Below are positions 1,327 to 38,027 of a stretch of DNA of 64,000 nt, one piece after another (the first letter of the stretch is position 1; each line of letters starts with the position of its first letter). The stretch comes from Heliocidaris erythrogramma (Eukaryota > Echinodermata > Echinoidea > Camarodonta > Echinometridae). The notes under the pieces are model-generated. The model was not told the DNA's origin. It searched no databases and saw only the letters and a program-made list of their open reading frames with translations. The position numbers were made by a program, and so were the translations under genes. The stretch spans positions 48,835,813-48,899,812 of the forward strand of contig CM046855.1 in assembly GCA_025617745.1 (NCBI GenBank), given 5' to 3'.

Positions 1327-4300
1327 GTAACTATAACTAAGTAAATCATCAATTATAAATTATATCCGCACGTACTTCACTCAATTTCCCAGGACATGCA
1401 CGAGGAGCTCCACTGCCTCCAGTCCAATATCCATCATGCCCGGCTCGAGCCCTTGGCCATGTCGAACCCGGGGGAAGCAATGTGATGGGGCTTCTGTACC
1501 CCTCGCGTGCGTGCCGCATGCATGCCGCTAGACAGAAAAATCCGTCTGTTTGGAGGAGTTTTATAACATTTTTTGATTTTCGAGGCTCTCCTCCAAGACA
1601 GACGGAAGCCTACCATAGTCACCGTAGTCGAGTACCTCTCCGCGGGCCTTAACCACTAACGTCCGTGCGCATTGACTCGCCACCGTGGCGTTGTTAACTC
1701 GCCACTCACCTGTCACTTACTGTCAGAACTCGTCCTCTAAAAATTATCTGCATCGCTTCAGACTTTGTTGTGGCTACATTGAATAGGTCAAAATATATTC
1801 TTCTGCCGTTGGAAGTCTCTTGTAAGATCCGGCGCATGAATAAGAGTTGGGCGCGATCAAAGTTTAACTAGCACACACACTCCTGCAATAGCCGGTGGAT
1901 GGAGCTCGGGCGACAAAGACTAGACCTCCCTACTCAACAATAGTTGTAGCCCAATATGACGGAAGTTGACAAAATTTGCTATCGAGATGAAGATTAAAAT
2001 ATACTGATCAAGCTGGTACCATTTTAAAAGAGGGGGTGGTGTGATCTAAAAAAATAGAAGGGGTGGCGGTTTAACGTAGAACCCTCTACAAGAAGGTGGC
2101 GAGTCTGCGTAGATCTGGCACATGTGTTGTGTGTATGTATGACGTGCCTGTGTGGTGTGCGCATGCGCGCAGTATTGGATTTGTAACTACAGGTAGAGAT
2201 CGATGGGCGCGACTCAACAGCAGCCACCTATTGAGTCGCCATCCCGGAAGTATGTATATAGTGACGTCATTCTCTTTAAAATGGAGCATTTTCATGAATC
2301 ATGCTTTTGAGATATTTTAGGGGATACATTGATGTTTTCATATTAAATCAAGATTTTGGCAAGAATAAAGTTTAATTTAGCAGTATAGGAAGTTTAAGGC
2401 CGTTGGGTGGCGACTCAATGCGCATGGACGTTAGGGGCGGTATTCTGAAAACTGTGTTATCTTTTGTGTTAAGGAAAACTGTGTTAAATGTCATAACAAA
2501 TTGAAATTGCGCGCAATAAACACTAATCATTGGTGCTTGCGCAGATGTCTCTGTTAACTTTACGCGGGCACAGCCATCTCTGCGCTATCATTAACCAATG
2601 ACTTGTCATGATTTTGATTTGTTATGACAATTAACATCGTTTTACTAACATAAAAGATAACACCGTTTTCAGAATACGGCCCCAGCAGACTAGGGTCTAT
2701 GGCCAAAAGTATGAGGTGCCTCACCCTACCACCGGTACGTTTATAATATTACTATATTCTATAAATACTAATTAGAAATAGAAGTCGTAGATCGACATAA
2801 ATTAACTTATAGGCCTATAGGCCTAGTAAAAATAATGTAGGCCTATACTAAATACAGGTGCGCTCACCTGAATTTTGAAATAATCCAAAATTAACCTCGT
2901 TTTGACATGTCAGCGGCATTGTCAGCGGGGTTATCGCAAATGAATCGAGGCGAATGGAATACTAATGTAGTGAACGCACACGCGTGTACGCGTACGTAGG
3001 TCCCAGCTTAGCTGCGGAGCTCCTGACTCAAATGCAGTCAAAGCTGATAAATTTGTTGTTCCATCGTATTTCGGTAAAAATATTACCAATACCACGTAAG
3101 ATAATCTCACAAACCTTACTTAAAATGCAATAAAAAATCATAGATTTGCGTGAAGGAGGATGAATTTTACGATTTGAATATTTTCCGATGAAAAAAAGGC
3201 GAGAATATTATATCGCGGACGATCGCGACCGATCTTTTCTCTCATGTTGAAGCACTACTGCGCGTGCGCAATGGTGATTGGCAATCAGGTTTTCGAGAGA
3301 CCAGCACTGAGAAAAGATCGTTGTGACATTTCTATCGCATTTTTTTTGCCAAAGAAATATTGAAAACGTACGTATAATCACTCCGATTGCAAGTTTTTGT
3401 TATTTTCATGTAAGTATGAGTAGAGCTGGTGATTTTATGTGATGTGGTATTTGTACTATTTTAATCGAACTTTGGTCAAAGCAAAAGTAATGCACAAGGG
3501 TGTATAGCTCATCCGCGATGAGCCGAATATTGTAGCACCATAGGAAAGCACATAGCGATGGACCCCAACGGGAGTGGCTGGGGCAGACTTCGGTCTATGT
3601 AGGAGAGGGATTCCGCGAAGCCAGACGTAGTCTCAGCGGAGCATATCCCCGAACGAAATAGACTGATTTTTTCGATCTAGCATGCCGCATGCATGCCGTA
3701 ACTTTTTGGAGTTTTCCAAAATATCACTGACGTTTTGAATTTGTTAAGCTGATCTCTTGTTGATTTGGAATTCATCCTGTAGATACGACAACTTTGAAAT
3801 ATTCTGGAAGTAGACCGCTAAGCTGCTAAGGCTCTATTAGTAGATGTCGACAGGGATAGAACAGTTTTCAAAATGAAAATAGACATGATAGACGACTCAT
3901 GTCCTGAATTATTATTAAGTTATTTTAACCATGTGAACTTCTAGATTCTAGATTCTAAGTTCGGCCTAAAGCATGTAAAGGGAAAGTCCACTTAACCTTA
4001 ATTTTTTCTATTGATACTAGATCTAAATGTTAGATCTAGATCATAAAAATGTCCTAACCAACAACACGATTAAAGGCATATTTTCAAAATTAGTTACTGT
4101 TGTATTCTTTAGAAACATAGTGATCAATTAAACATTTGCCTATATACCATAAACATGTAGAGGAGCCAGGCTTGACTAGCACATGTATGTGCTATTTTCT
4201 GGTCCCATTTACCATTTGTATTATATATGTTTTCATATCTGTATTATTTCTTTGCATTTTTTGTGAAAACATGTCATTTGTCGGTGAGTAAAATCAATCA

Positions 4301-7300
4301 ATAAAAAATAGAAATTTATGATTTTTTTTCAGTACAGGGCAAATATGAGATGGGCTCGCAAGATACGTCTGATTGATTACACCTTCAAAAATTCAGAACT
4401 TTCTTGTTACAATTTACAATGTACTTTGGATTCAGCAGCTTTACACCACCGCCGCCGCGTCATATTCTTGTGTGCGCTCTAACTGCCACATTCAGTGACG
4501 GATTTCTTTTAAATTTTGTATGGAGGTGTATCTTGGTATAATCTACACACATATAATTTCTGGTGATGCTGCCCCCAGTGCTCTGTCTTTTGTAGGGTAA
4601 AATGCCATATTTTTGTGTATAGTTTGTGTGTGCTCTGGCGGTCACATTTCTCAACAGATTTGTTCAAATTTTGCATGAAGGTGTCTCTTGATAGAATCTA
4701 GAAGCCTATAGATTTTGGTGATGCTGTCTCCAGTGTTCCGTCTTTTATCGGGTCAAAGGTCATATTTTGATAGATGCCTTGTTGTGCACTCTTGTGTACG
4801 GTATAAATGCCACATTTCTTAACAGATTTCTTTCAAATTTTGTATGGAAATTTGTATGGAAGCAAGCAAATGACAGCTCTTACATTGAACAATAAAGTTT
4901 CAGGACTTTATCACTTCGGCAACATGTGGGTGTGTATAGTTTTTGGTGATGCTGCCCCAGTGTCCCGTCTTTTATAGGGTCAAAGGTCATACTTTGGAGG
5001 ATCGGGTGAGTGCAATCTGCAGGGCACATTTCTTTATGGATTTCTTTCAAATTTTGTATGGAGATGTATCTTGGTACAATCTACAAATTTATACGTTTTG
5101 ATAATGCTGCCCTCAATATTCCGTCTTTTATAGCCTGGTCAAAGGTGTCCATTTCGTGCGCTCTTCTGCATTTCTTGACAGATTTCTTTCAAATTTTGTT
5201 TGGAGGTGTATCTTGGTAAAATCCACACATCTTTAGTTTTTGGTTATGCTGCCACCAGTGTTCATCATTTATAAGGTCAAAGGTCATATTTTTGATGTCT
5301 CGTGTTCGCTCTGCAGGCCATATTTCTTGGAAGGATTCCTTTCAAATTTTGTATGGAGATGTATCTTGGTACAATCTACAAATTTATACTTTTTGATAAT
5401 GCTGCCCTCATTTACCCGTCCTTTATAGGGTCAAAGGTCAAATGTATTTTGTGCGCTCTACCTGCCACATTTCTTGACGGATTTCTTTCAAATTTTATAT
5501 GGAGGTGAGTCTTAGTAAAATCACATCTTTAGTGTGTGCTGATGCTGCCCCCAGTTTTCTTTTTATAGGGTCAATTGTCATATTTTGGTTGCTGTCTTGC
5601 ATGCACTCTGGCCTTCACATTTGTTGACTGATTTCTTTCAGATTTTGTATCGAGGACCATCATAGATTACTCTAGACCTCGACACTATTTGGTGATGCTG
5701 CCCCTAGTGTTCCGTCTTTTATAGGGTCAAAGGTCATATTTTAGTGGATATCTTGTGTGCGCGCTGCAGCAGGTCACATTTCTTGACAGATTTCTTTCGA
5801 ATTTTCTATAGAGATGCATTATACTCTAATCTATACACATTGTTTTGGTGATGCTGCTCCTAGTGTTGAAAATAGTCCAGGCCACTGGTGGCAATCTCTG
5901 TCATCTCTGTGTTTGAGGGAGGGGAGGGGGGGGGTTCTTTGTCCCTCCTCCGAACAAAAGGATGACGCAAAAAACACTGCCAGTGCCGGGGGATACATTC
6001 GCATTGCGCGGCAATGGACATTTCTAGTTTCTTATTAGATTTTGCTCAAACTTTCACTGATCAGATCTGTTTAATTTTTCTGCTTTTAAAACCAAGTTGA
6101 TATCAGGATGTCCTTTCCCTTTAACTGTGGGGCAGTTTAACCTTTGTTGTGATCCTCTGTAGTGCATGGACTATTAATTTTGTGTAAAAATCTAGTCCAT
6201 TAAATTTTTGTGTGCAGCAAAATATCAAAGATAAAAATAAAACATGCAAGCACATCTCCCTCAAATTTCTTTGATGGGGACAAATAAACTACTAGTTTGC
6301 AGGCACAAACCCTGATCAATCGTAAAAGAGTTGTCTGCACTGTAAGACTACCGTAGGCCCTGTACTATAGGTAGCTGGGTTAGGCTTCTCTCAAGACAAT
6401 GTCAAATTAGGGTCTGTGCTTGCAGACTAATAAACTACAATTCAACTTTTCTTCTCCTGACAGCATTCATGGCATTGCAATTGCAGTGGCACTGTTAATC
6501 TCAAATTGTTTGAGTTATATAAAGAGTCTATAGGATGTAAATCATCAGTGTTATATCTAATGAGAATTGAGTAGTTATTGCAGTTGTATTACTCTGATCC
6601 CATCAAATGTCCTCACAGTTCAAGTAACTTGATCCATTGCAAGGCATCGGAAAATCTATGATGTGGTTCATCTGTGACATATGAAAGGTTCTGAAATCCA
6701 CTCACTCTTTCTCCCTCACTCGTTTCAAATATGAAGTATTAAAAAATGAAATATAAAAATCAACTCACCTGTTCTACATATATTCTACATCTTTCAGCCT
6801 ATCAAACCTGCGATGTCTTTCGTTAGCGGCATCCAGATTTCAGTCAGTCTCTGCCCAGCAAGCTGACGTTGATTCCACCGAGGTAGCACAGCCAATCAGG
6901 TCAGACAATGAGTTCAGGATTGTACTGAGGAGACTAGATGACATGGTCAGGCGGACAGGGCGCATCACCAAAGCTCAGCTTCTCCTTGTCTTTGATGAAA
7001 TTTGCAAGCTTGGTAAGTGAAAGATATTATATGATCAGGGCTGTATAAAGAAGAACAGCTGCAGGTCATTCTGGTTAATCTGTTATACAGTACTGTAGAG
7101 ACCAGCATTCTTTTCACAGAAGCTCAGTTATTATTTTTATTTATCAATGTTCCAGGCTATCTTGGAAATCGGGGAAAACCTGGAAAATTAGTTCCCTTTT
7201 TTTCCAGTCGGGGAAAACTCGAAAATTAAATCAGGGGCAAAATCCGAGAATTTAATTGGCCCCAAAAGAATGTAACTTACATTTTGTCTCGTGTCCACAA

Positions 7301-9064
7301 GGAGAAGATGTTTCAAAGACATTTTGAAGATGTCTCAAACCGGAAAATAGTTTGAAAATAGGGTAAAATAAGGAATTGATTTACATGCAATACTGGGAAT
7401 CCTGCTCATGGTCGATGAAATTTGCCATCTTAGGTGAAATGTTTTACTGGTCTTTAAAAAGATGATGCCCTTCATAGAGATGAAATATTGCATAATTATT
7501 CTGTTAAAAAATGCAGCATTCATAAAAAATATGGAACCCTCTAATTTAAATTATCTTTGATTGCTAGTCAAATTGATCAGGCCTGAAAAAGTATAGGTTT
7601 TTGCACACCAGCCCCTCAGGTTTTATTCAAATGGATAGCATGACTTGTGAGAGAACAGCAAATTTCATGATTAATTCACTTACATGTTAAAGGTAGTACA
7701 TAGTGTTTGCAAAGATCATAGATTTTTCAAATGTATATTTTATTCGATCGAAGTGACCTACAGAAGAAGATAATGGTCGTTGGTCCGGTTAAAATCGGTC
7801 AAGGTTCAGAGATATAAAGCGTTTTTTTTTTCTCGAGCTGTATAGCGCAATCGTTGGCAAAGATATTCTCCTCCGCCAAAATAAAGGTTTTACATAAGAA
7901 ATCAAGTTCGTCGTTAAAAAATAGGATGAAGTAGTCTCACATAAAGATACACCTAAAATTTCATGGCAATCGGCCAATGAGAAACTGAGATATAGGGCTT
8001 AGTAATTCTGCTTTTGTTGCTAAGGGATCGCATTTTTATCGGGAGTCCCCAGATAAAAAAAGCCCTGAATTTTCAATAAAATACATTAAATAGAAAAATG
8101 TTAATATCTCGAAAACTAAACAATATTAGAATCTACGGTTTGGAGGGCTGGTTACATGTAGGTACCCCAAAGGGAGTGTTATAACAAAAAATGAATAAAA
8201 TTTATTTTTGAACCCCCGACACTATGCACTACCATTAAATCGTTTGTATGCTTATGAACAAAGAGATATTTCAGTCTTTGGAATAGTATCTTTAGGATGC
8301 AGCCCTCTGCTGTAATATTTTTGCATACACTGATTTTCCTCTTTATCAGCTTTGTGTGTATTTGTGCTCAATTTCTTTATTCCTTGGGCCATTGTGATCT
8401 GCTTTCTCCCACTATCAGTAATGTTAGTGCAATGCATGATCCCACAGTAAACATACACATATTTTTACAAAAGTTGACAAAATTTGCCAATTTTTATTTT
8501 AAAAAAACATGATTTTGAACCTCTCAATGTGTTGCCAATTTAAGGATTTTAAAACTTATTCCTGGCATCAAATGCAATATGGTCATGCAACAAAAATGGA
8601 CATATTGTGTGCAGTATGATGTATCTGGTATATTTTTTTAAAGCTCTGAATTAAAGGTTACTAAGCCAACCACAAAATGTGGTCAATAGTTTCAGAAGGG
8701 TTAAACAACACAAATTGTTTCCATACTCATGCATGAGAAGTGGCTTCTTCTCTTACCTGGGATTATTTTGAACGTTGATATTGGTTGATAATACTGTTAT
8801 TGATGATTATTAGTTTTTAATGATTGATTATTTATTAAAAAGCAAGTAAATTCTGATGAATCTAAATCCGTAATGAATGCTTGATGTTCTTAACCTTTAA
8901 CCCCTAGGTGCTGCCAAACCTAACCAGGCCCTACTGCTCATCAGGAGCTGTGGTGCACTCTTGCCAGAGGTGGCTCTCGAGGAGAGGACAGCACTTGTCT
9001 CTAACATATGGGATAAACTCAAAGAACTGGGTAGGTATATGCTTTGTTTGTCATAGTAATAATA

Positions 9065-9095
<31 letters not shown>

Positions 9096-12000
9096 CGATG
9101 ATGATGACGATGAGGATGACGATGAGGATGATGATGATGACGATGACGATGAGGATGATGATGGTGATGATGGTGATAGTGATGATGATGGTGATGATGA
9201 TGGTGATGGTGATGATGATGGTGATGATGATGATGGTGATGATGATGATGATGATGATGATGGTGATGGTGATGGTGATGGTGATGGTGATGGTGATGGT
9301 GATGGTGGTTTTGGTGATAGTGATGATGATAATGATTACACTCTTGCCAGAGGTAGATCTTGTAGGGTACATTATGTAGGATAAACTCGAAGCATGTTTA
9401 AAGCCAGCTGGGTTTCCAAACTCAATTATGGCAAGTTGCAGAGTTTCCAATTTTGGATAAAACATTTACATGTTAAATACGATGTGCTTTTTGGGATAAT
9501 TTGCATTTTCCATGTAAAAACATTTGGCTTATCTCAGTACTCAGGCTCAGTATTCAATGGTTCAGTGCAGAAGAAAATGTCCCTAGATTGCTCTAGAATG
9601 GCCTTAGCATGGCATACCCTATATCCCTGCAATTATTACTGAACTAAAGATGTAGAATATCACGTTTCAGTCCGAAATGTAGAAACACAATTCTTCCATA
9701 AACAGCTCATGTATTGGCAAAAGATTGTCTTTAATGCCTCAGTGTTAACATCTTTGCGTTGTGTATTACAGGAGCTACTTTTGATGTCACACATTACAAC
9801 GCCCTCCTCAGAGTCTATCTTCAAAATGAGCATAAGTTCTCCCCAACCGACTTCCTTGCCCAGATGGAATCTCATGGCATTGATCCAAACAGGGTGAGCT
9901 TTTTTTTCTATTGTTTACAGGTAACAGGGATCCACTATCTTTTTTTAAGATTTCGGTTTTCTGTCGTAATTCTAAAGATATACAGATTCCTTTATCAAAA
10001 TGCAGAGTTTGCAGCGCTGGTTGTATTGCATGAAATCGAATGCCTAGGATAAACATATTTTTCTGTGCTTCCACCAATCATGATCATTGAATATATCTGA
10101 TCTGCCAATTTCTAGATAACCTACCAGAGGTTGATCAGTGCCTACTGCTTACAAGGCGACATCCAGGGAGCTACCAAGATCCTGGAGTTCATGAAATCCA
10201 AGGACCTCCCTGTCACAGAGGGCATCTTTAATTCCCTCATCACTGGACATGGAAGAGCAGGGTAATTGTCTTGTTTTTTGGATTTTTTTTTATTTTTTTT
10301 TTTTACCTTCTATTGTTTGTGACTGGACTTAGTTTTGTCTTTTGTGACCCTTTCTAATTCAGATTTAAAGGGCAAGTCAGACCTCACCAATAACAAAAAG
10401 ATTTTCAGTTAAAGGTGGGTGCAAAATGCTTACTTGATTACCCATTATGTTGTTGTTGTTAATTGGGCTTTTTACAGACATGAATCAGTCAGATATGATT
10501 ATTTACATCACCATCCAAAAGATGTGACTGAGATTTGAACCTAGGTCCGATCAGAGTCCGTTTGTATGTGAATGCAGAGAGCTGACCATAGACGTCACTG
10601 CTAGACCAACTCCTGATCCCTGTTTTAAAACCTCTTGCTCCTGTGTTTTAAAACCAGTTTAAATGCCTGTATAGCCCACTGCAAACTAGAAAGCTCTTCA
10701 TCCACCTACTATGTGTGTGAGAACAGGGCCGCAATTTAATGTTCAATTATGGAACAAGTGGGTTTGGAGAGTAAAAAATCTGTTTTTAAAATTCTTATTT
10801 ATTTTTGTTTGCAGCGATCTTGAGAATGCACAGAACATATTGAGTGTAATGAGGTAAGTGGGTATTACATTTTAAGCACGTTTTCTACAAAGGGATTCTT
10901 TTGTTAGATATTAGAGTAAAATGTCAATATATTATAGGCAATGTGGAAATTGGCTTGCAATAGACTTACAAATTCTGGAGTATTCTTCAGTTTGTTTATA
11001 AAAATCATAGGCAGAGGGGTATTTTTGAAGATTGTTGATATGATCTTGATACATTCTTTTGAGTTCACTTTGCTGTGTGTTTTTTTCTTTCTTAGTTATC
11101 TTTATAAATTCAGATTATTTGAATGATTTTGGACGAGTGAGAATCTTCAAATACAAAGTTGCAGGGAAAGGTGGTAAAATTTTGTATTGTGTTCTTCAAC
11201 ATTTTATTTAACTTCTGAAAGTGAGTCAGTACAACAGTTTGACAATTAAGCTCATTTCTTAGTATGTTCATACATGTTTTAAACCAGAAGGTTCCTGTAT
11301 GTAAGCCTAGGAGTATGACAACATCCAATTGTCCTCTGGTTGACAACAATAAGACTGTCAAAACCATGTACATCTCTGTTTTGTGTGATAGGAATGTTGG
11401 ACTTGAGCCTAGTTCTGACACCTACACAGCTCTCATGTGTGCTTATGCTGAAAAGGGAGACATGGAAAGTATCACAAAGGTAAAAAATTTGACCCTTCCA
11501 TTGCATTGGTTACATAGGTAGAATACTTCCCTCCATGATATTTTGAAAGTGCACCCATTTGTTTAAAGTACTACCCTGTATAAAAAGTGTTTGGTCTGTG
11601 ATGAAAAATTTATCCACAGTGCTTGCGACAACAAGATGATTTATAATTTTCCTATGAAAACTAAACTTTGTAGGTAGTCTGTGTGTTTTCATCCAAAGTG
11701 GATTTACAAAATACCCTCAAATTCCATTTTTTTTTAAAGGTGTATAAGAGCGATACATCTGCAGTTGAGCCACTTTTATATTTAACTTGTATATTTCAAA
11801 TTGTGCATTTTGAGATTATTCAAAGGTAGTTTCTGATAGGGAAAAAACAATTTGAGTGTTATGTTATGAGTATGTTATGAGTATGTTATCCAACAGCTCA
11901 AAACTGATTTCAGTTTTATGGTAGTGAAATTGACATCAAAATGGTAACTTGATTATAATAACTTTATTCTATCCCACTATTCTTATTGGCACAGCTTTCA

Positions 12001-24000: not shown

Positions 24001-27000
24001 GAACAGCATATCCCAAATATTGTTTTGTAGTTCTGACAGACGAGACGAGTCGTCTCTGGCCTATTGTTCAGCTAGTGCATATTTTCAGTCAGTATTGTTC
24101 ATCATTTATTTCAAGTTTGTATCTATCAATATACGAAGGATTATGTGAGAAATTGAGTTTTCATCACTACCAGAATTCAAGACTTCTTTAACCCATACAC
24201 TACGGGAACTGGGTGGCTCCTGTATTAAGCCTATGAGATTCAAAGAATTCAGTAGTCAACGGGTTAAATGGCATTGTTCCCAACTTGCTGTTTTCTCCAG
24301 AATTATGAGCGAGCCGTGGACTTGAAGAAGGAGTTTGATGAGGCTGGTTATGAACCGACTGGAGCCATCTTTGCCTGTCTCATCAACATGTGCTGTAACC
24401 TAGGCAAATTCACTGAAGCTATGGACTTGAAAGAAAAATTGTAAGTCTTGTCTCTCTGGTCAGTGTAACTTGTAAGGTGGCTTAGCGAAACATGATGACA
24501 AATTATTCAAATTGGACATTTTATTCTATAGAGGCAGAACCAAAATATTAGGATGTAGAATTAGTATATAACACTTTTAAGCAAAATAATATGAAAACTT
24601 TCATTCAGATAAGTCTGATTGTAATTTTAGATGCACAGACAAAACTCTTTTGCTCTTTGCATCTTTCCAGCATCTTTATGCGCCATTGTATTTCGTTATT
24701 AAAGCTACTTAAATTTGGTCCTTAAAACATAAAATAGGCATTTATTTGGTGAGGAGGTGTTTTATTTGATGCTTCTGTAGATTTGTAGACCAAGGGGGGA
24801 CATTTTATTATATTTGGGGGGGGGGGGGTGGTCAGCTACATTAATAAACCATTCATGTGGACTGTGGACTGTAAGCTCAGAATACCAATGTTAATTTCAA
24901 AGTCATTTTTTTTATTCTTTATTATTCTCTTGTTTATGAACTCTGCTCTAGTTTCCTTTTGTTTATATAGTTTTTCATATAAATCAGTATGTAGGTAGGG
25001 TACTATAAATTTGAATAAGCCTCTGTCCTTGATTTTTTTTTCTTCTTCTCCATTTCAGGCACAAGTTTGACCCCAGCTTCAAGTTAGACATCTCCAAGTA
25101 TCGCCTTCTGATTTGTCATCTTGCTAAAGAAAAGCGTCTACCTGGTAAGTGTCTTGTCATGAGATGAAATTAGATAAGAAAGCAAATAAATGCTTGTGAT
25201 GAGCAACAATAAGACCATTACATTCTATCCAAGGACTGTAGGTTTTCTTAAAGGATGATGCCACACTTAAGGGCAGTGATATATGCCATGTCCATGGAGC
25301 TTTTACATTTTATATTGTTACTGTGCTGGTTTGTGAAAGATTCATTCACTTGTAGCATCCTCCCAGGTTCTCATTTCTCTTCGGAGTGTAAAGATGCAGT
25401 TGAACTGACTTTGAACTTGCATTTTATTCTCCAATACTACTAACTTACAGTTAGTATACAGAGCAATATTCAGCAAGATTAGAAGCATCAGAAAATAGCA
25501 TGGATGCTAATGGATTCTGTTAATGTACCTCAGTAAATATTTCTAATGAAATAATCCAAACAAGTGAGGTGTAACGGTTCATTAGCTGATTATGAACAAA
25601 ACTACTTGTATGATAAAATTGTAAATGGTCAGAATTGTGGTGCTCTGACATAGACGCCAGCGAACAATTGCTTCAGGCTTTAATTCATCAAAAATATAGG
25701 ATTAAGGTATTGTGTTGAGTCTTGGAGCGTTTCATCAAGCGTTTTGTCAGTGATTTTTACTAACGAATTTGCTCTCAGCCAATCAGATGCAAGGATTTCA
25801 GTAGCTTATAACGGTTGTCGGTAAAAATCACTGACAAAACGCTTGAAGAAACGCTCCCCTGGGTTGAAGTTCAGAATTCGGTCACTCTAGGATGTCGGCC
25901 GTGGAGCAATTGACGCCGGAACATTTGTGTAGATTGATATCTTGCCATTGCTATGAATCTTTCTGATGTTGACTGTGTTTAGATGCTTTGGACATGGTGC
26001 ATGAGATGAAGGAGCTCGCCGTGGAAACGGACCGGATGGAGAAGCAGACGTTCCATATGCTCAACGAGCTTGCATCCCAGGGAATGAGCGAAGAGGTGGA
26101 GCGCATCTTTGAGACGATGGTGGAACTCGACCTGGTCAAGCCTAACAACAACCTGGTGGGACCTGTTGTCAGTGCATACATGGCCAAGTAATTATTTTTC
26201 TTTTTTATCAAATACTTGGGGGTGGGGCAGCAGGAGGATGGCTCATTAAAAATCCAATGACTTTTTAGATTTTAAGAAAGCATCTTTTAGACAATGGTGG
26301 AATTGGGTCTAGTCAAGCCTTACAACAGCCTAGTAATGCCTTTCTTCTCTTTGATCAAATAAAACTTCAAAGGTAGAAAGAAGGAGGGAGGGATCATTTA
26401 AGATCTAAGGAATTTTTAGAAGTTCATAGTGTTGGTTTCTTGTAGTGGAACTGGTCATGTGATACATAGATTTGCTGAGAGCATTTGTATTTTAATATTT
26501 CTCATACTCAAAGAATAGAAAGCACTTTTTGAGATACGTCTGTATGAATTGTCTGTCAGAATACAGCATTTACATAAGATTGTTTATTCCATGGTGGACT
26601 ATATTATTCAAACCATTTACATGTACAGTTCCGCCCGCGGGCAACGTCACGCCCGAAACAAAGAATGGACGAGACCTGCCCGCGCTTAGACGAAAATCGG
26701 ACGCGTCCGGTACCCTCAAAGTCAGTCGTGCGTGAATGCGGAAATACTCGTACATTTGAGGGTACTTGGACTAAAAAATAACGCTACCTCAGGAAGAAAG
26801 ATTGCGTGGCTTCGTCCGAAAAAATACAGAGTATTTCTCTTTGTAATAAAAAGGGTTTTATTTAATTTCCCGACAACCATTTAGATATATATGAGGACAA
26901 TATTAGGAAATAATTTAAGTTGTCGAAGGTGTCGGGAATTTCATTTCCGCATCCAAATTTTGGTCCCGACCAAAAATATGGACGCGGAAATTTTGCCCTC

Positions 27001-30000
27001 TCCGAAAGTGCGGAAACGCCGGGAAATGTTTAGAAGACAGTGAATAGAATCTTTCGAGATTATGCGGATAGGTTGCTGAATAAACGCGGATCTACTTATT
27101 TTACATTCTGCGTCCTGTCTGCGCCCTATTCTTCATATTTAATAGATAATAAACTGACGTACGCTGAGTTATTGTTTTAGTACCTTTTTTATATGTTGCC
27201 TAGCAAAACGACATCGCAATTTGAGATCGGGATATCCTTTATTTTCTTTAAAATATAACTAGTTGCGCCCGTTTGAAGTCTAACATTTTGCTTGGAGTTT
27301 GGTTTACTTGAATTCTCTAGATTATGAGGAATCACGAATAAAATATAACATTTCTAAAATAGTGAAATGTGCGCCAAGTTTGACAAAAATAATTGTCAGT
27401 GGTTTCTTTTTTTCTAGGATGAACACCAGATAAAAGTTTATCGAAAGTTTATCCGAATCAGCTAGATTATTGTAAATACGTCTTTTTTTTTTTAAAGTGA
27501 ATTTACTAAATCATGATATATTTTTAAGTGTGTGGTGATATATTACAGTGATGTATTTACTTTTTAAAGAAACAAACATGTACAAGAAAGAAAATACAAG
27601 AATGAATGTTTTAATGCTGTCATAAAATATTGAAGAACGTAAACTTTGATCACCACAGTGCTTCATGTTTAATCGTTACGATCGTCGTACATTTTTTTCT
27701 GTTATACAGGGGGCATAATTATCTCACTCAAGCCCATTACTAATTTTTATTTGGGTGGTGTCCTGACTGTCCTTCATATGTCATAATGCATAGGGTTCGT
27801 TACTCCTACGGTTCGTAATTCCGAAAATTCAATAGACTACATAAATTTTCGGAATTACTAACCCTATTTTTTAAAAAGACTTTATGCCTTTCTTTTTTTT
27901 TTTTTGAATTATGCCGTAGTCATGGTAGTATTAGGGCGTCGCCTTCCGGCAAGGGGGCTGCTACTGCCATTCACTGCCGTACTGGACTTCTTACAGGAAG
28001 CAACGAGGGCTCTGATTATCAATATTTTAATATACGAAACCCCGTTTTTTCAGGCGGGTGGCCAGGGAGGGGCGGTGGGGGCGGCCTCCCCCTTAAACGT
28101 CAACTTAAAAAAAAGTGAGAACTCCTTGGAACTCCCCTCCCCGCATCCACCACTTTTACATACGGTGGAAAGCAGTCCCGGCGACGAACTAACTATTTTC
28201 CGTCTAAAAGGGTGCTACGAGCCGTTATATTTATCTCCAATTTGCTATAAAACGTCAGAGCTTCGCGCGGGAGCCCCTCCCGGCACGGTTCGTGCGCTTA
28301 CAACCGCTCCTCCCATAAAATTAAATCCAGACTAAGCGGTTGCATTTTTCCTGTCTGAGCTTAATAATGTACATGATCTGATAGGCTTGATATTATTTTT
28401 ATTTTCTGTTTTGTTTCGTGCTTGGAACAAAACTTGCCATACAAACTTGTCCATCCGTCTCGGAATGTACATTAGATCACATTCAGAGGTGACGAGAAAC
28501 AAAATGCATAAATTACTTGCCATGTTCTTCTCGCTCCGCGAAGCCACGGCCCTTTTATGGTGAAACCGACATTTTGCGCGTTATTGTAAACATGTAAATC
28601 ATTCTGGTCAAGTGAATGGTGTCGTGTCCTCTTTTTTCGCCAACGCGCCTTATTCTTTCCACATCTACCGCACAAATACCGAATAAAATTGTCATGTCTT
28701 ATTACTCCTAATTATCCTGACTGAAACAGAATATAAAATAAAAACATTGGGTCATTTTGATTTGTCACTGGTGAAAATCATATTTCGCCAGTGATAAATG
28801 GCCGATAATATAGCTTGCATGTCGTCACAGGAAGCAAAGGGACATTTTAAAAATCAATATGAAGTAGCAGAATGGAACTCGAATTTCTAGAGTGGGGGAG
28901 GGGTGGCTGAAAAAAAAATGGAGTAAGGGAGAGGGATTAGAAAGAAAAGGGTGAGCAGAGAGTGAGAGTAGTGAGAAGCGGGGAGAGGAGGAAAGTGGAT
29001 GAGATTTTTAAAAACGAAGAAGAGGGGATTCAGGGAGGACGAGGGAGCAAAGACCGAGACAGAACAGATTACGAGTATATAAGAAGCAGTGAGAAAGAGA
29101 GAAGATTGGGAGGGTGGGGAGCGATAGGGAAAAAACAGAACAGAGAGAGAGTGACCAGCGACCGAGAGAGAGAGAAAATAACTTGCGCTCCTCAAAGACA
29201 CCGCCGCTTGATAGTGAAACTAATTTTGCGCACATTTGTCAATCATTCTGGTTGAGTGCTGGTATTGTGTTCTGATTTCTTCAGCGTGCCTTTTATATAT
29301 ACTCATCTCGACAAAAAACACCACCCCCCCCCCCCCCCAAAAAAAAAAGGGAGAAGGGAGAAGAAGGAAGAAGAGAGCGACAGAGAGAGAGGGAGGGAGA
29401 AGAAGCCAAAAACCGAGACAGAAGCAGTGAGAAAGAAAGAGAAGATTGGGAGAGTGGGGGAGGGAAGGGAGAAAAGTGATATATGGGGGGAGGGGGGGGG
29501 GGGTAAAAAAAAACATGTCTACGAGCCGCTACCTTTTAATCAAAATTTGCTATTAAAAGCGTCAGAGCCCCTCCCGCCATGAAATTGGCTAAGCGGCATT
29601 TGTTTTGTTTTGTTTCGTGCTTGAACAAAACTTGCCATATAAACATTTTCAAATCAAACTCCCCCCCCCCCCCCCACCCTCTCGAAAGTGGTTTTGAAAA
29701 TCAAGATTTTGTATGTATGTTCATCCGTCTCGTAATGTACATTATCACATTCAGAGGTGACGAGAAACAAAATGCATAAATTACTTGTACTTGCTTTTCG
29801 CTTCGCAAAGCCACCGCCCTTTGGTGGTGAAACCGACATTTTGCGCGCTATTGTAAACATGTCAATCATTCTGGTCGTGTGAATGGTATGTGACCTCTTT
29901 TCGTCAGCATGCCTTTTTCCTTCCACATCTACAGCGCACGAATAAAAAATGTAATGTCTTATTACTTCTAACACACGATTATCGAGTTTCTCTCTCTCCT

Positions 30001-33000
30001 AAATCATGCACTTGTATGATAATCTCGGCTGAGTTCACTTTCTCTCTGCTAAAGAAAAACAGTCTGTGTTTCCGCTCTATTTACTGCAGTTTTTTTTTAA
30101 ATCGTAACTGCCTCTTGTAAAATTAACGCCCTGACAATTCTTTCTTTCCTTCTAAATCACGTACATGTATCATAATGCCGAAAGTTCTTAATTCTGTTTT
30201 GAAATTTGTATATACTCTTTTCTTTTTACTGGATTAAAAGCGATGGGAACAAAAAAGGCTAATGTGGATATTATTTTACCCTGCTCTAATTATTTTTAAA
30301 ATGTGTATCTACGGGTTTCTAAAAGCTAAATTTCTTTTCTTTTCCCCATGTCTGCATGTTACGGAGGTATAGAATCCGCCCCTTTCAAAGAACAAGAATT
30401 AATGGAGCACCTCCTCAGGCCCCTGCACGAGACGATTATTTATTTTTTCTTCTCTCTCTCTCTCTCCCCCTATGTCCTTCTAAATCACGCGTTTGTTTTA
30501 TAATCTCGTTATAAATAAAGCTAACTTTCTTTTCTTTTCGGCTGTAATAATCGTTACATAATTGAAATGTATCATCCTAATGTTAAAACAGCGGGACGAA
30601 GATAAACTGCGTTTATATATAGCTCGAATGTCAACGCTTCACTCCGCTCTAGTTTACCCGAGGTTAAAATAAAAAAATCATGCACTTGTTTCATAATCTT
30701 GAAAAAGATCATTTTCTTTCTGGTCAAAATGTTGACTTCCTTTTCTTTTCGGTTGTTAAAAGAGTTACAGAATTGGACTCTTATCATCATCATGCTAAAC
30801 AGCGGGATGAAGATAAACTGCGTCCCAGCTCGCAAGCCATCGTTTCTCTCTGATCTATTTAACTGGAGCTTTAAAAAACAATTCCCTCTCTCCAAAATCA
30901 CACACCTATACCATAATTTTGAACGCTCTTCATAATTCTGTTTTGAAAGCTTACATTTACTTTTTGTGAGGGCATTTGAAGAGCAATCCTTTTCAGGGGA
31001 CATATATCTAGTATGATAATCTTCCAAACGAACGTAGTAAGAGTAAGAAAGTTCAGAAATTATTTTTTTAACCCTTTCCCAGAACTCCAGCTCCCCTTTA
31101 CACAATAGACGTGTGTCACCTTTTCATGGCATGGTCATTAATCTATCAATGGGTTCCGATTTCTAAGAACTTCCTGTCATAAATTGGAAGGCAGGAGTTT
31201 GACACAAGGAGGGGAGTGTCGATACTGAAAAGAAAAGATCGTTTTTGTTGTAAATAATGATCAATAATCCATCAATGGACCTCCCGCTTTCTAAGAACCT
31301 TCTGTCTTTTTGAGGCACGGGGAGGTCGTACATAGTAATAATTTGTAATTTCTAGCGCCTTTCACTAAAATGCATTCCCTATGAAGGTTTTTTTTTTCTT
31401 TATTTTTTGTGAGGGGTGGGGGACTTTGACACTGCTTTATACAGTTTTATGATTATTGATCCTGAATTTAACATCTCATAAGAACCTAGAATAGAGTCTA
31501 AGATCAAGTGTACCGTGTTCCCTTGTGAAAAACAGGGGCGGGGTGCAATACTGCACTGTATACTGTATTAAGTGTCAAATTTTCGCTTACTCGCATCACT
31601 CGCTCGCAAAATTTAGAAAATGGAAAAGTTAATATTCGGGTAAGCGACGTCAGCACCCCGAGAAAAATAGTGCCCGTATGCCTATGTGTATGAAATAACT
31701 TACTTCATGACGGTCGTCAACGTTTGTCTGTTATTAGTACACCAACGCCAAAGGAATTTTTTTTCATCCCCGATAAATAGCTTCTTTGTCGTTCGTCACT
31801 GTTAAGTGTATTTCTACAATGTAACTGTAAGTTTCAATGTCACAATTTATAGTTCTTTAAACCTGATTGTACAATATACCTTATACAACTATACATGTAT
31901 ATATTCTCCTTTGATCAATAAAAAAAAAAAAAAAATACTGCACTGTATAGTTCGACGTCATGACTGCTTTTAACTTATTTAAGCGCAAATTACTATCGGG
32001 CAATACTGCATTGTATGTTACAGGGGTGGCGTGGGGGTCCCACCCGCCACCCCTCCTGCGAGAAGCGCAAAAGCTCTGACGTTTAATAGCAAATTCGAGA
32101 TAAATACGGTTCGACGCCGGGACTGATATTCAACTGACTTTTGTTTAGACGCTATGATGCATGCATGCACTGCGAAGCGCATCAGAAAAAGTACTCCGGG
32201 GCAATACTGTACTGTGTGTAACAGGGGTGGTTGCGTGGAGGTGGGGGGGGGGGGGGGGGTGGTTTCTTTCCTCCAACACCACCCCCCCCCCCCCCCCACC
32301 CGCGAAAACTTTTTTTTTTTTGGCCTTGGCGACCACCCCCATCGCACCCACTGGCTGCGCACCTGCATGCTGATGATCTAAAACAACAGAGATGTCGCTC
32401 GTCTTTATCATAGTATTAGTTCCATAGTAAAATTGAAATGACAAGAAGTTTTCTCTTACTTTTATCTCCAATGTTTCTTAAGCAAAATAGCGCATAGTCG
32501 CGGCTTGAAATGACGGCATGAATTTTATAGTAGGTCTAATAGTATTTCAGAAAATTCGTTTCATAACTCATCAGGCGTGTAATTCCGAAATACAAATTTT
32601 CCATAGCGAGGGGGTTCACAATTCCAAATAAGTGACATATTTTTGTGAAGATTCGTTATTCAGAAGGTTCTTTACGTATATTTCGAAAACGATGTAGGCT
32701 CCATGTAGGATTCGTAATTACGAAAATATAATATAGCCCTAGAACCGGGTGTCTCCTGTATAAAGCCTATGAGGGTTAAATAATTCAGTAGTCAACGGGT
32801 TAAGAACCTTCAGAAATATAAACATTTTTCTCATTCCCGGAATTATGAACCCCACTTCATTTTCGGAATTATGAACCCAAATCTAGAAAATTGGTTTGGC
32901 GCATAAATTACAAAGAATCTACTGACCAAAATATAATGAAACAACAAATAAATTAGAACTATAAGACGCAAAGTACATTAATTTTATCGACTTGAAAATG

Positions 33001-35923
33001 GGTTCGGCGCATAAATTACAAAGAATCTACTGACCAAATGAAACAACAAATAAAACAACAAATAAAACTAAAAAATAAAATAGAATTAAGACGCGAAATA
33101 TATTTATCGAATCGAAAATTGATTTGGCGCGTAACTAATGGATAATATTCAACCCAAATAAAACATGAAATGAATGAAGTATACAACGCAAAATGTTTAT
33201 ATCGGATAGAAAATTGGTTCGGCGCATAAATTACAGAGAATCTACTGACCAAATGAAACAACAAATAAATTAGAACTATAAGACGCAAAATACATTTATC
33301 GAATCGGAAATTGGATTTGGCGCGTAACTAATGAATAATATTCAACCCAAATAAAACATGAAATGAATGAAGTATACAACGCAAAATGTTTATATCGGAT
33401 AGAAAATTGGTTCGGCGCATAAATTACAGAGAATCTACTGACCAAATGAAACAACAAATAAATTAGAACTAAGACGCAAAATATATTTATCGAATCGAAA
33501 ATTGATTTGGGGCGTAACTAATGGATAATATTCAACCCAAATAAAACATCAAATGGATAAAGTATACAACGTAAAATGTTTATATCGGATAGAAAATTGG
33601 TTCGGCGCATAAATTACAGAGAATCTACTGACGAAATGAAACAACAAATAAATTAGAACTAAGACGCAAAATATATTTATCGAATCGAAAATTGCGTTTG
33701 GCGCGTAACTAATGGATAATATTCAACCCAAATAAAACATCAAAGGGATAAAGTATACAACGCAAAATGTTTATATCGATTAGAAAATTGGTTCGGCGCA
33801 TAAATTACAAAGAATCTACTGACCAAATGAAACAACAAATAAATCAGAACTAAGACGCAAAATATATTTATCGAATCGAAAATTGATTTGGCACGTAACT
33901 AATGGATAATATTCAACCCAAATAAAACATGAAATGAATGAAGTATACAACGCAAAATGTTTATATCGGATAGAAAATTGGTTCGGCGCATAAATTACAG
34001 AGAATCTACTGACCAAATGAAACAACAAATAAATTAGAACTATAAGACGCAAAATACATTTATCGAATCGGAAATTGATTTGGCGCGTAACTAATGAATA
34101 ATATTCAACCCAAATAAAACATGAAATGAATGAAGTATACAACGCAAAATGTTTATATCGGATAGAAAATTGGTTCGGCGCATAAATTACAGAGAATCTA
34201 CTGACCAAATGAAACAACAAATAAATTAGAACTATAAGACGCAAATATACATTTATCGAATCGGAAATTGATTTGGCGCGTAACTAATGAATAATATTCA
34301 ACCAAAATAAAACATGAAATGAATGAAGTATACAACGCAAAATGTTTATATCGAATAGAAAATTGGTTCGGCGCATAAATTACAAAGAATCTACTGACCA
34401 AATGAAACAACAAATAAATTAGAACTAAGACGCAAAATATATTTATCGAATCGAAAATTGATTTGGCGCGTAACTAATGGATAATATTCAACCCAAATAA
34501 AACATGAAATGAATGAAGTATACAAGCAAAATGTTTATATCGGATAGAAAATTGGTTCGGCGCATAAATTACAGAGAATCTACTGACCAAATGAAACAAC
34601 AAATAAATTAGAACTAAGACGCAACATTTATCGAATCGGAAATTGATTTGGCGCGTAACTAATGGATAATATTCATCCCAAATAAAACATGAAAGTGATG
34701 AAGTATACAACGCAAAATGTTTTATCGAATAGAAAATTGGTTCGGCGCATAAATTACAGCGAATCTACTTACCAAATGAATTAGATCTATAAGACGGAAA
34801 ATACAATATGTGGGCAGCGGAATTTTCTGTAAATTTTCACTACAAAATTAGAAGCTCGAAAGTTGTTTTTTTGTGTGTCAAAGACATCGGAGCAATGAGA
34901 CAAATGAGAAAATAAAGATGAAACACAAATCATAAGGATGTTTTGGTAACATCGGCAACACCTTGTCTTTAACGTCTTGAAAGAGAAGGGACATTGCAGA
35001 ATTATAAAATGGAATATAAACAAGAGAAAACAAATATGAAACATAAATCAAAAAGATGTCGGACCCGTGCCGTTCTCGCGGCTCATCTCAAACATCACGC
35101 TTGCACACAAACCCTCGTCCGGTCGTACTAGGGCATTTAGACTAGTCCGTTTACCCTAGTACGCCCGAACGCGTTTAGACGAAGTGCTGCCCGCAATGAG
35201 GACGCGTATATTTAGACGGACGCGTGACGTTGCCCGCGGGCGGGACTGTATATCACCCCATTACTGTCAAAGTGACATTTTGGGGCTGGGTTAATCTTTT
35301 GCAAAATGCATTAAAGAATTAGAACGCAAAACATTGTGCATACTTTTCAGTGCAAGTTTGTATGGCATTTTAGAGCGAGCACTTATGCAGTTTGGATGTA
35401 TAAACTTTTAATGTCCTTAGCAAACATGTTATTAGTGCCTTTAGAGACATGTTATTCTACTTTACTTGTTGATGGCCAAAAAAAAGCATCTATAAAGTTC
35501 CAGCTTAAATCCACATTGAACAGATGGATGAAAAGCTTGCAGAAGTCTAGAGGAAATAATTCTCTTTGAATTTATTTGTCTACAGGAATGATATGGAAGG
35601 AGCCCTGGCATGTATACGTGACTGCCAAGCCAAGTACAGCATCATGCCTCACTTCCAAGATGTCCTTGTTCGTCTAGTGGAGGAGGGCCAATCGGACCAG
35701 CTTCAAAGAGGTGAATTGATGAGGAAAGGTGTTGGTGATGGTGATGGTGATAGTGGTGATTGTGTGATGATGATGATGATGAAGATGTTTTTGGTATTGA
35801 TGAGGATGATGGTACAGTCATCCAAGATGTCCTTTGTTCGTCTGGTGCTGGAAGGCAATATGGACCAGCTTCAGAGAGGTGAATTGATGAGGAAAGATGT
35901 AGTTGGTTGTGGTAGTGGTGATG

Positions 35924-36003
<80 letters not shown>

Positions 36004-38027
36004 AATCATGATGATAAGGAGTTGTTTGTGTTGATGATATGGTGATGATTACTATAATAATGGTTGTCATGGTGAGGATGATTAAGTTATGATGATGAAA
36101 GTTGAGGAGGAGGAGGAAGAGGAATAATGAGGATGATGTTTTTGATGGTGAGGATAACTGTAGTATTTGATTGGTGATGGTAGGTTTTGTGATGGTGTGG
36201 TCATAATGGAATGTTAAGAATTGTGATGATTTATGATGTCTGTTTTTCTTTTTTTGTCTGTAAAGCAATGGACTTTGCAAGTCAGCAGCACGGTGACATC
36301 AACATGCTGTATGATCTCATCTTTGCGTTCTGCACATCTGGCAAATACAAAGAAGCTGCTAAGCTTATTGAGGTAAGAAGTGGATTTAGCAAACCTACTC
36401 CCCAGTCACTCAACAAAAATGAATCAAAAGTGACTAATAACTAGGCCTTTTTAGTTAATTCTTTTGTTCGGTCTGTTGTTGGTCTGTTATTTGTCTCAAC
36501 GGTGTGATTGTGGTATAAGGACATTTCTAAAGATGTAAATAAGAAAGCATGTGTGAAATGAATTCTTGTATTCTTTTTAGTACATCAAAATTGACATTTT
36601 CAGTGAAATGTTTTTAGTGAAATGTATGTATTTACAAGAAGCATATGAAGATGAGATGATGATGATGATGATGATGAAGATATCGATGGAGATGATGATA
36701 GATGATGATGATGATGATGATGATTATGATTATGATGACGATGATAAATAAAATAAAGACAATGATAAAGATGATAGATTACATATGCATTTGACTGCTC
36801 TTGTATCCCCCTACCTATACTGGATAATGCTTTTTCTTTCACTTTCAAACAGACCCCAGGTATGATCGCCAAGAACAAGCGCATCCAGTGGTATGCCGAG
36901 CGTTGTATCGGAGCTAATAACGTGGAAGCCCTAGAACAACTGACGGCCGTTACTAAAGATCTGTATGCGTGTGACAGAGATCAGATGTACTTCTATCTCA
37001 TTCAGTTACACAGTATGTCATCCGCATTACTAAAGTTTCTGCCCATTCTTTCATGTTAAAAGATTTAAGATGAGTCCAAGTCCAAGCTACTTTTTTCTGT
37101 CCATTAGAGACTACAGCAAAGATTTGAGTATACCTAATGAATATACTACTTTATATCCCTGTTATAGTGTGGATCAGAGCAAATATCAAGGAAACTGATT
37201 ATTTTGATGTTAATTATGTTCATTATTCAATATTTGGTGAAGTATGGGACACAGGATGACTGCAAACTTTAGACTTGCCTATAAACACTGTGGACTATTG
37301 AGTACTGACTTTTCATTTTTGTATGATATGTAATTCTGAAACAATGTTTTATCATTTATCTGCTGTATCGAACCTCTAGATGGGATTCCTGTGGTCAAGT
37401 TGAACTAACTCACATTTTTCTTTGTGTTACAGAAGCTATGTTTGGTTGAACATAACTTTCTGTTAGAACTTTTAATAGGGCTCACCCGCTATGTAACCTT
37501 AATGCTGTGGACTTGTTTTGCTTTTAGAGACTACGTTATCACATTGACATGAGAAAAGATTGAATATCTTTTGTCTGTATGTCACAGTTATATAGCTGTC
37601 TTCAGATTTTCTGAATGAGATTCAAATGCTCAGATGTAAGAACTCATTACAAATCACTTTGATTCAAAACCATTACTCTGTTGCTGCCAAGGCTGGGTAA
37701 AAACATAAGCAATTCATGTGTTCTCTTTATAATCTTTTCTCTTGAAAGCCCGCAACAACGACGTTGATAAGTGCCTGGAAGTGTGGGCTGCTATGCAGGA
37801 AGAGGGTGTGGTCCCCAGAGACAGGACGATGCGTTACCTTGCCAACGTACTTCGGTCGTATGACAGGCCTGTACCGTACGAGGTCCCACAGCTCACAGCC
37901 GATCAGGTACCGTTCTATACCAGTTTTATTATCTGTTAAAACATAAGAACAATGGGTACTGTTTAAGTAGAATTTGAAAGCTCAAAATTGACCTGTGATC
38001 TAAAAACCAGAGATATAATTAAGTGGG

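Follow-up and report, generated by a model that had tools for sequence, protein, structure and literature searches.

A probable giant non-autonomous DNA transposon in an LRPPRC intron of the sea urchin Heliocidaris erythrogramma

The 64,000-nucleotide stretch of Heliocidaris erythrogramma DNA analysed here (the window; G000:C3:48835813-48899812) carries in an intron of the gene LRPPRC an 8,623-bp element that occupies positions 26626-35248 on the + strand, the labels left and right being arbitrary. With a probability of roughly 0.85 this is a giant non-autonomous DNA transposon with terminal inverted repeats (TIRs) that entered at a TA dinucleotide by cut-and-paste transposition and whose transposase is made elsewhere. 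The family is a real mobile element with ~100 similar copies in the genome and has been recently active. A giant non-autonomous element had been proposed in the first-pass annotation of this DNA, and the proposal is upheld by the insertion at TA, by further copies with the same body and by the failure to find a gene. The element and its boundaries are as follows.

26626..35248, + strand: the whole element, 8,623 bp, delimited by copy comparison and end pairing, with LRPPRC exons on either side
26624..26625, no strand: left copy of the TA target site, read in the sequence; TA is present on both sides in 15/15 complete copies
26626..26652, + strand: left TIR, CAGTT type, from a window pattern search; 91 left ends genome-wide
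35222..35248, - strand: right TIR, CAGTC type, from a window pattern search; 100 right ends genome-wide
35249..35250, no strand: right copy of the TA target site, read in the sequence; likewise in 15/15 complete copies

The 27-bp TIRs are identical at 26/27 positions (28/29 with the flanking TA included), the one-base difference being that between CAGTT at the left and CAGTC at the right. At up to 3 mismatches they are the only two such sites in the window, against 0 in 100 shuffles, which confirms the TA-flanked, TIR-bounded insertion of ~8.6 kb that had been noticed in the bare sequence. CAGTYCCGCCCGCGGGMAACGTCACG is the terminal sequence of the element family. The impression of GC-rich ends within an AT-rich intron was also correct, the two end zones of ~175 bp having a G+C content of 0.53 and 0.58 versus 0.34 in the adjoining intron flanks. 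The exon 5' of the insert resembles human LRPPRC residues 766-834 (E 7.5e-6, a comparison in which designed pentatricopeptide repeat proteins score higher), and the reading frame 3' of it resembles human LRPPRC from residue 831 onward (E 4.5e-22); the first stretch tried in the LRPPRC comparison gave no match. Because the flanking exons match consecutive parts of the human protein, a single intron of ~9.4 kb contains the insert, as had been supposed, and ~8.6 kb of that intron is the insert itself. An Rfam scan of the window at gathering thresholds gave 0 matches, and the exact TIR was found 0 times among viral contigs.

The 1.06-Gb genome contains many such ends. A left-end query gave 98-100% identity at 40/40 scored places (of 160 candidates), and these matches, the window apart, begin either exactly at the TA (16 matches) or up to 10 bases outside it; a right-end query gave 97-100% at 40/40 scored places (again of 160 candidates), ending, the window apart, 0-11 bases past the TA. 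The TIR pattern at up to 2 mismatches has 193 genome sites, of which 100 were listed, versus 0 for a reversed control, and longer end-specific patterns at up to 3 mismatches found 91 left and 100 right ends, all listed, with reversed controls again at 0. Sorted by position, the ends form 76 convergent pairs within 30 kb, every one of which joins a left with a right end and none of which joins two ends of the same type. Pair lengths run from 4.6 kb (4,589 bp) to 26.3 kb with a median of 8.41 kb, 50/76 lying at 7-9.5 kb, so that the remark that the element is far longer than usual Tc1/mariner-like elements extends to the family. Two unrelated small elements that face each other, by chance or as a composite, could be imagined from the older nested repeats inside the element; the exclusively left-with-right pairing, the shortest pair of 4.6 kb and the same body in 14/14 other complete copies leave almost no probability for this explanation, and two separate small elements were rejected on the pairing pattern and the shared body. 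Ends that occur solely as separate small elements, which the first-pass annotation had said would speak against a single insertion, were not seen.

Sequence was read from 20 regions of the main family, from two long copies in part, and from pieces at 13 ends of variant type. The 20 regions are the 20 best non-self left-end matches; complete copies of 7.2-9.3 kb are present in 14 of them, making 15 with the window element. The remaining six have the left end; in five of them the right end lies past the sequence read or was not detected, and the sixth (L024) has an internal right-end fragment. All 15 complete copies have TA on both sides and a common body, so the prediction that a genome search with the ends would yield several full-length copies alike at their ends and inside was borne out by 14 further ones. 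Pairwise identity of the body before the satellite is 96.6-99.7%, and 13 copies diverge from the majority by 0.29-1.13%, L027 by 1.90% and L017 by 2.33%. Of the minority variants, 380/494 are private to one copy, as after a burst of copying. In older relatives, which have variant ends (L033-L045), the body is again present, its segments ~80-97% alike and individual short ones more so, and the long form is thus older than the recent burst. Two arrangements of copies may be recorded here. L017 and L018 (C5:14245504, C5:14053437) lie 192 kb apart in opposite orientation with 99.6% identity over 265 bp of left flank, which suggests an inverted segmental duplication; and two right ends of differing type but like orientation, 1.5 kb apart (G000:C3:50016566, C3:50018057), face one left end at 50024911.

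Insertion at TA is seen in copy L023, whose joined flanks align without a gap over the junction to other units of the tandem array in which the copy lies, with one TA. ATG stands just outside the TA in 15/46 unique flanks versus a background of 2.6%, a count biased by the finding of copies with a query that included 24 flank bases, such that left flanks lean towards that of the window. In right-end flanks alone ATG is found in 6/21 versus the same 2.6% (p ~1e-5, counted by eye), two identical flanks being counted each for its own copy and L009, whose right TIR is missing one base, being excluded. The string TACATGTA is itself frequent in the window, with 12 occurrences versus 2.1 expected.

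The end zones contain further features inward of the TIRs.

26626..26752, + strand: left-end zone, nearly invariant among 15 copies (copy comparison)
26681..26694, + strand: subterminal motif CGCGCTTAGACGAA (window pattern search); the motif core is at element position 61 in 15/15 copies
26710..26765, + strand: putative subterminal hairpin with 11-bp stem GTACCCTCAAA / TTTGAGGGTAC, from the sequence and a DNA fold made without shuffle control; its function is presumed
35125..35162, + strand: putative subterminal hairpin with 9-bp stem GTACTAGGG / CCCTAGTAC, from the same kinds of evidence, also with a presumed function
35170..35183, + strand: subterminal motif CGCGTTTAGACGAA (window pattern search, copy comparison)

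The first 127 bases of the element have a single variant over 15 copies (L027, position 102), and a hairpin stem lies ~85-140 bp inward from each end. A subterminal motif at both ends had been claimed, and this stands as far as the exact copies are concerned: CGCGYTTAGACGAA occurs in the window at 26681 and 35170, on the + strand both times. Its inexact matches are another matter, since at up to 3 mismatches there are 5 in the window versus 3.35 expected, and the motif is without significance beyond its two exact copies. A literature search for the motif and TIR strings gave no lead, which is not proof that the TIR strings are absent from papers.

No coding capacity was found. A six-frame Pfam scan, which covered the whole of the window element and that element alone, gave nothing credible, the lowest E of 0.004 falling below the cut-off of its family; tnp2 transposase (PF02992) had no match in the window element, and two X-translated forward frames in the first 15 kb of the window had no Pfam match. 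In the part that precedes the satellite, no frame of at least 100 aa is conserved throughout the 15 copies. The best shared frames, of 112 and 109 aa, are open in 13/15 copies and closed in L017 and L027, near chance level by our own estimate, and in the old copy L033 the 4 kb of novel sequence had no credible Pfam match. The earlier statement that no transposase is visible inside thus survives a six-frame search, and a coding element was rejected for want of a credible Pfam match and of a conserved long frame. That the element is autonomous now or was until recently, its gene being unrecognised, broken by introns or confined to a rare copy, would accord with the partial reading of the copies, with a whole-element Pfam scan on the window element alone and with low variation (0.1-0.3%) among copies over element positions 3601-3800 and 4001-4400; it is nevertheless unlikely in view of the Pfam scores below cut-off, the closed frames of L017 and L027 and the result for L033. 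Larger copies as the autonomous form were rejected, those examined carrying nested inserts (L025, L031, L021, L026).

The mobilising enzyme is probably of the Tc1/mariner type and TA-targeting. The family has a TA target-site duplication, and its short TIRs start with CAG(T). This combination suits the IS630-Tc1-mariner superfamily, in which we infer a membership that is unproven, and the usual length of 1-6 kb in that superfamily, which is exceeded here, is typical rather than defining. The genome is rich in such enzymes: it has 107 DDE_1 matches, several of which contain long open frames, and a first look for DDE_3 gave 1754 candidates, 150 of them scored. One pogo-like (DDE_1) element, L047, has an open frame of 592 aa and ends TACAGTCAAACCTGTC, and its terminal sequence is that of a 1.3-kb insert between TA dinucleotides in L026. 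The same architecture could instead be served by a transposase from outside IS630-Tc1-mariner, such as CMC/EnSpm, ISL2EU or an undescribed TA-targeting enzyme that uses long subterminal zones. The subterminal motif, the nearly invariant end zones and the unequal ends would suit such an enzyme, as would a size above that usual for Tc1/mariner and the failure to find a TIR-sharing partner or a listed DDE_1/DDE_3 match inside a pair; on the other side, TA duplication with CAGT ends belongs to Tc1/mariner and pogo, and the ends of L047 and of the like-ended L026 insert between TAs point the same way. An outside enzyme is a possibility held with less than even confidence.

A number of findings weigh against a giant transposon moved in trans by a Tc1/mariner-type enzyme. 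Fifteen left and 24 right ends are without a partner, 15 of these 24 belonging to a right-end type with GGAAA replacing GGCAA. For L015 the junction is spanned by a related repeat from L009, but this comparison site is approximate, several bases near the TA being different. None of the 107 DDE_1 matches and none of the 150 scored DDE_3 matches (of 1754) lies inside an end pair; the closest listed match of either kind is 22 kb from an end, contig 11 being without a listed end. Patterns that excluded the subterminal letters of the family found family point variants only (2 sites, 3 sites), in a search to which short elements would be invisible if their ends had diverged further. No DD34-39D/E transposase was detected in the window element, and no transposase could be tied to these ends; of the Tc1/mariner-like transposition first proposed, the TA duplication and CAGT ends hold while the enzyme is missing. 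Finally, the median of 8.4 kb is far above the ~1.3 kb typical of Tc1 elements and the 2-6 kb of PlantMar elements (PMC7325037). As to size, non-autonomous elements are usually smaller according to PMC10294476. PMC12292965 describes cut-and-paste systems as carrying cargo without a strict size limit, so that an 8-kb unit is mechanically possible.

The interior is marked by a tandem array near the right end.

32886..33089, + strand: start of a tandem array of period 108 (repeat scan of the window)
33059..34780, + strand: 190-bp tandem array, 9 copies, found inside family copies (repeat scan, copy comparison, genome matches)

The size of the 190-bp array varies by copy, with 3 to 11 exact 14-mer hits each, and part of a 20-kb copy on C9 (L032, 9.3-kb piece read) consists of more of this array; the rest of that piece, in which no Pfam search was made, has no frame of at least 150 aa. 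A query of ~1.4 satellite units has 333 genome matches, of which 150 were listed, and 150/150 lie within family copies, 141 lying inward of a right end and the other 9 inward of a left end alone. As far as the listed matches go, the array therefore belongs to the element. It is also present in 4/6 older right ends read (L040, L041, L044, L045) and undetected in the other two (L042, L043). Capture of a pre-existing genomic satellite by a non-autonomous element, which had been suggested and for which a long 190-bp array near the right end might speak, is highly improbable given the confinement of the listed matches to copies and the array in those four older ends; it was rejected because no array occurs outside copies among the listed matches.

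A second component was gained during the history of the family.

31547..31562, + strand: 16-bp duplication AATACTGCACTGTATA, left copy (copy comparison)
31563..31933, + strand: 371-bp poly(A)-ended retro-insert, absent from L017, L027 and the partial copies L018 and L026
31934..31949, + strand: 16-bp duplication, right copy (copy comparison)

L027 retains the intact pre-insertion site of the 371-bp insert and L017 does likewise with one change; the stretch is also missing from L018 and L026, both partial copies, and a deletion in L019 spans most of it. From the clean empty site in an older copy it follows that the element gained the 371-bp sequence and then went on multiplying.

Individual copies have in turn been invaded. 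The nested insert of the larger copy L025 has a reverse transcriptase gene, that of L031 has long frames and was read by eye, with no family search, as a long terminal repeat (LTR) retrotransposon, and that of L021 is a tandem repeat. The window has its own tandem repeat at 4467-5867 that is 73-92% similar to the minisatellite inserted at L021:8147-9759. In L026 the 1.3-kb insert (567-1879) has ends CAGTCAAACCTGTCTATAGCGGCCACC and lies between TA dinucleotides inside the family copy, and a 2.7-kb element (6874-9568) has inverted ends of ~385 bp (99%) and a 9-bp duplication GTGTTTAGA read by eye; the latter element looks like a Mutator-type element, and a Pfam search on it gave no match. Element position 263 was hit twice, by the LTR-retrotransposon-like insert of L031 and by the 1.3-kb element of L026. 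The older copies L036 (84% to the window) and L038 (92%) both depart from the family sequence at element position ~780. From there on L036 (L036:1-2700) has a tandem series of disrupted frames that resemble tyrosine recombinases (Phage_integrase, E 5e-4, with 20.2 bits falling short of the 27.1 cut-off) and are read as a putative nested retroelement. L036 and L038 may share an insertion site occupied by a DIRS-like element, or else may have kept ancestral sequence that the main family no longer has. Within the window element long C and G tracts occur in facing orientation (29320-29340, 29660-29675, 32240-32300), and outside it runs of TGA/ATG triplets are found at 35919-36015 and 36645-36745, downstream of an LRPPRC exon.

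Among known systems, short TIRs starting CAGT are presumably typical of the IS630-Tc1-mariner/pogo elements, and such ends were seen here in L047. The present family shares the CAGT ends, moves as a unit as those elements do, and has their TA duplication (PMC7325037); it differs in having no gene found, unequal ends with conserved subterminal zones and no linked transposase. In the literature searched, the closest counterpart among non-autonomous TIR elements that bear tandem repeats is Tetris of Drosophila virilis, with units of ~220 bp (PMC4079207). Unlike the present array (32886-34780), which lies outside the 27-bp TIRs and has no outside counterpart among the 150 listed matches, the Tetris units lie in the inverted repeats, in foldback fashion, and are described in that source as having seeded satellite arrays elsewhere (PMC4079207). 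Satellite-bearing dispersed elements of bivalves likewise have tandem repeats within a mobile unit (PMC8268682, PMC5139131). Miniature inverted-repeat transposable elements (MITEs) are similar in the lack of coding capacity found, the many near-identical copies and a presumed mobilisation in trans; the present element is far longer, with 0/76 pairs below 4.6 kb. MITEs are below ~1 kb in size. The bivalve elements are mostly related to Helitrons or Helentrons, without TIR or TA duplication. Other classes fit poorly: the ends begin CAGT and not CACT[A/G] as in CMC/EnSpm; a 27-bp TIR and TA duplication are at odds with Helitrons, which have no TIR and no target duplication; and Polinton/Maverick elements have long TIRs, a 6-bp duplication and many genes, compared with the 27-bp TIR, 2-bp TA and absence of a found gene here. 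The family was undescribed in the literature searched for similar elements, a search that did not cover repeat libraries such as Repbase and Dfam.

In the favoured account, that of a giant non-autonomous transposon, a transposase made elsewhere and acting in trans would recognise two unequal ends, each composed of a 27-bp TIR and conserved GC-rich subterminal sequence. The enzyme, apparently of the IS630-Tc1-mariner group, would excise the whole ~8-kb unit and paste it in at a TA, favouring ATG beside the TA, and slippage or unequal exchange may change the length of the array. The mode of insertion is ordinary; the size, the absence of miniature forms and the persistence are unusual. Non-autonomous DNA transposons are expected to shrink, shorter copies usually moving better. 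In a TIR lineage that has lived long, large size could be a feature rather than decay, with the unequal ends, the end zones and perhaps the array being needed by an undescribed TA-targeting transposase. This is a speculative and rather improbable suggestion, but if true, such a size requirement would account both for the failure to find short derivatives and for the recurrence of one body in several subfamilies.

For the gene, the finding means that an intron of ~0.75 kb in a conserved gene can grow to 9.4 kb by a single insertion. For the family, a gene-less unit of ~8 kb has recently multiplied to ~100 copies with no miniature found, gaining a retro-insert en route and leaving behind older subfamilies with the same body, and selection for transposon length thereby becomes testable.

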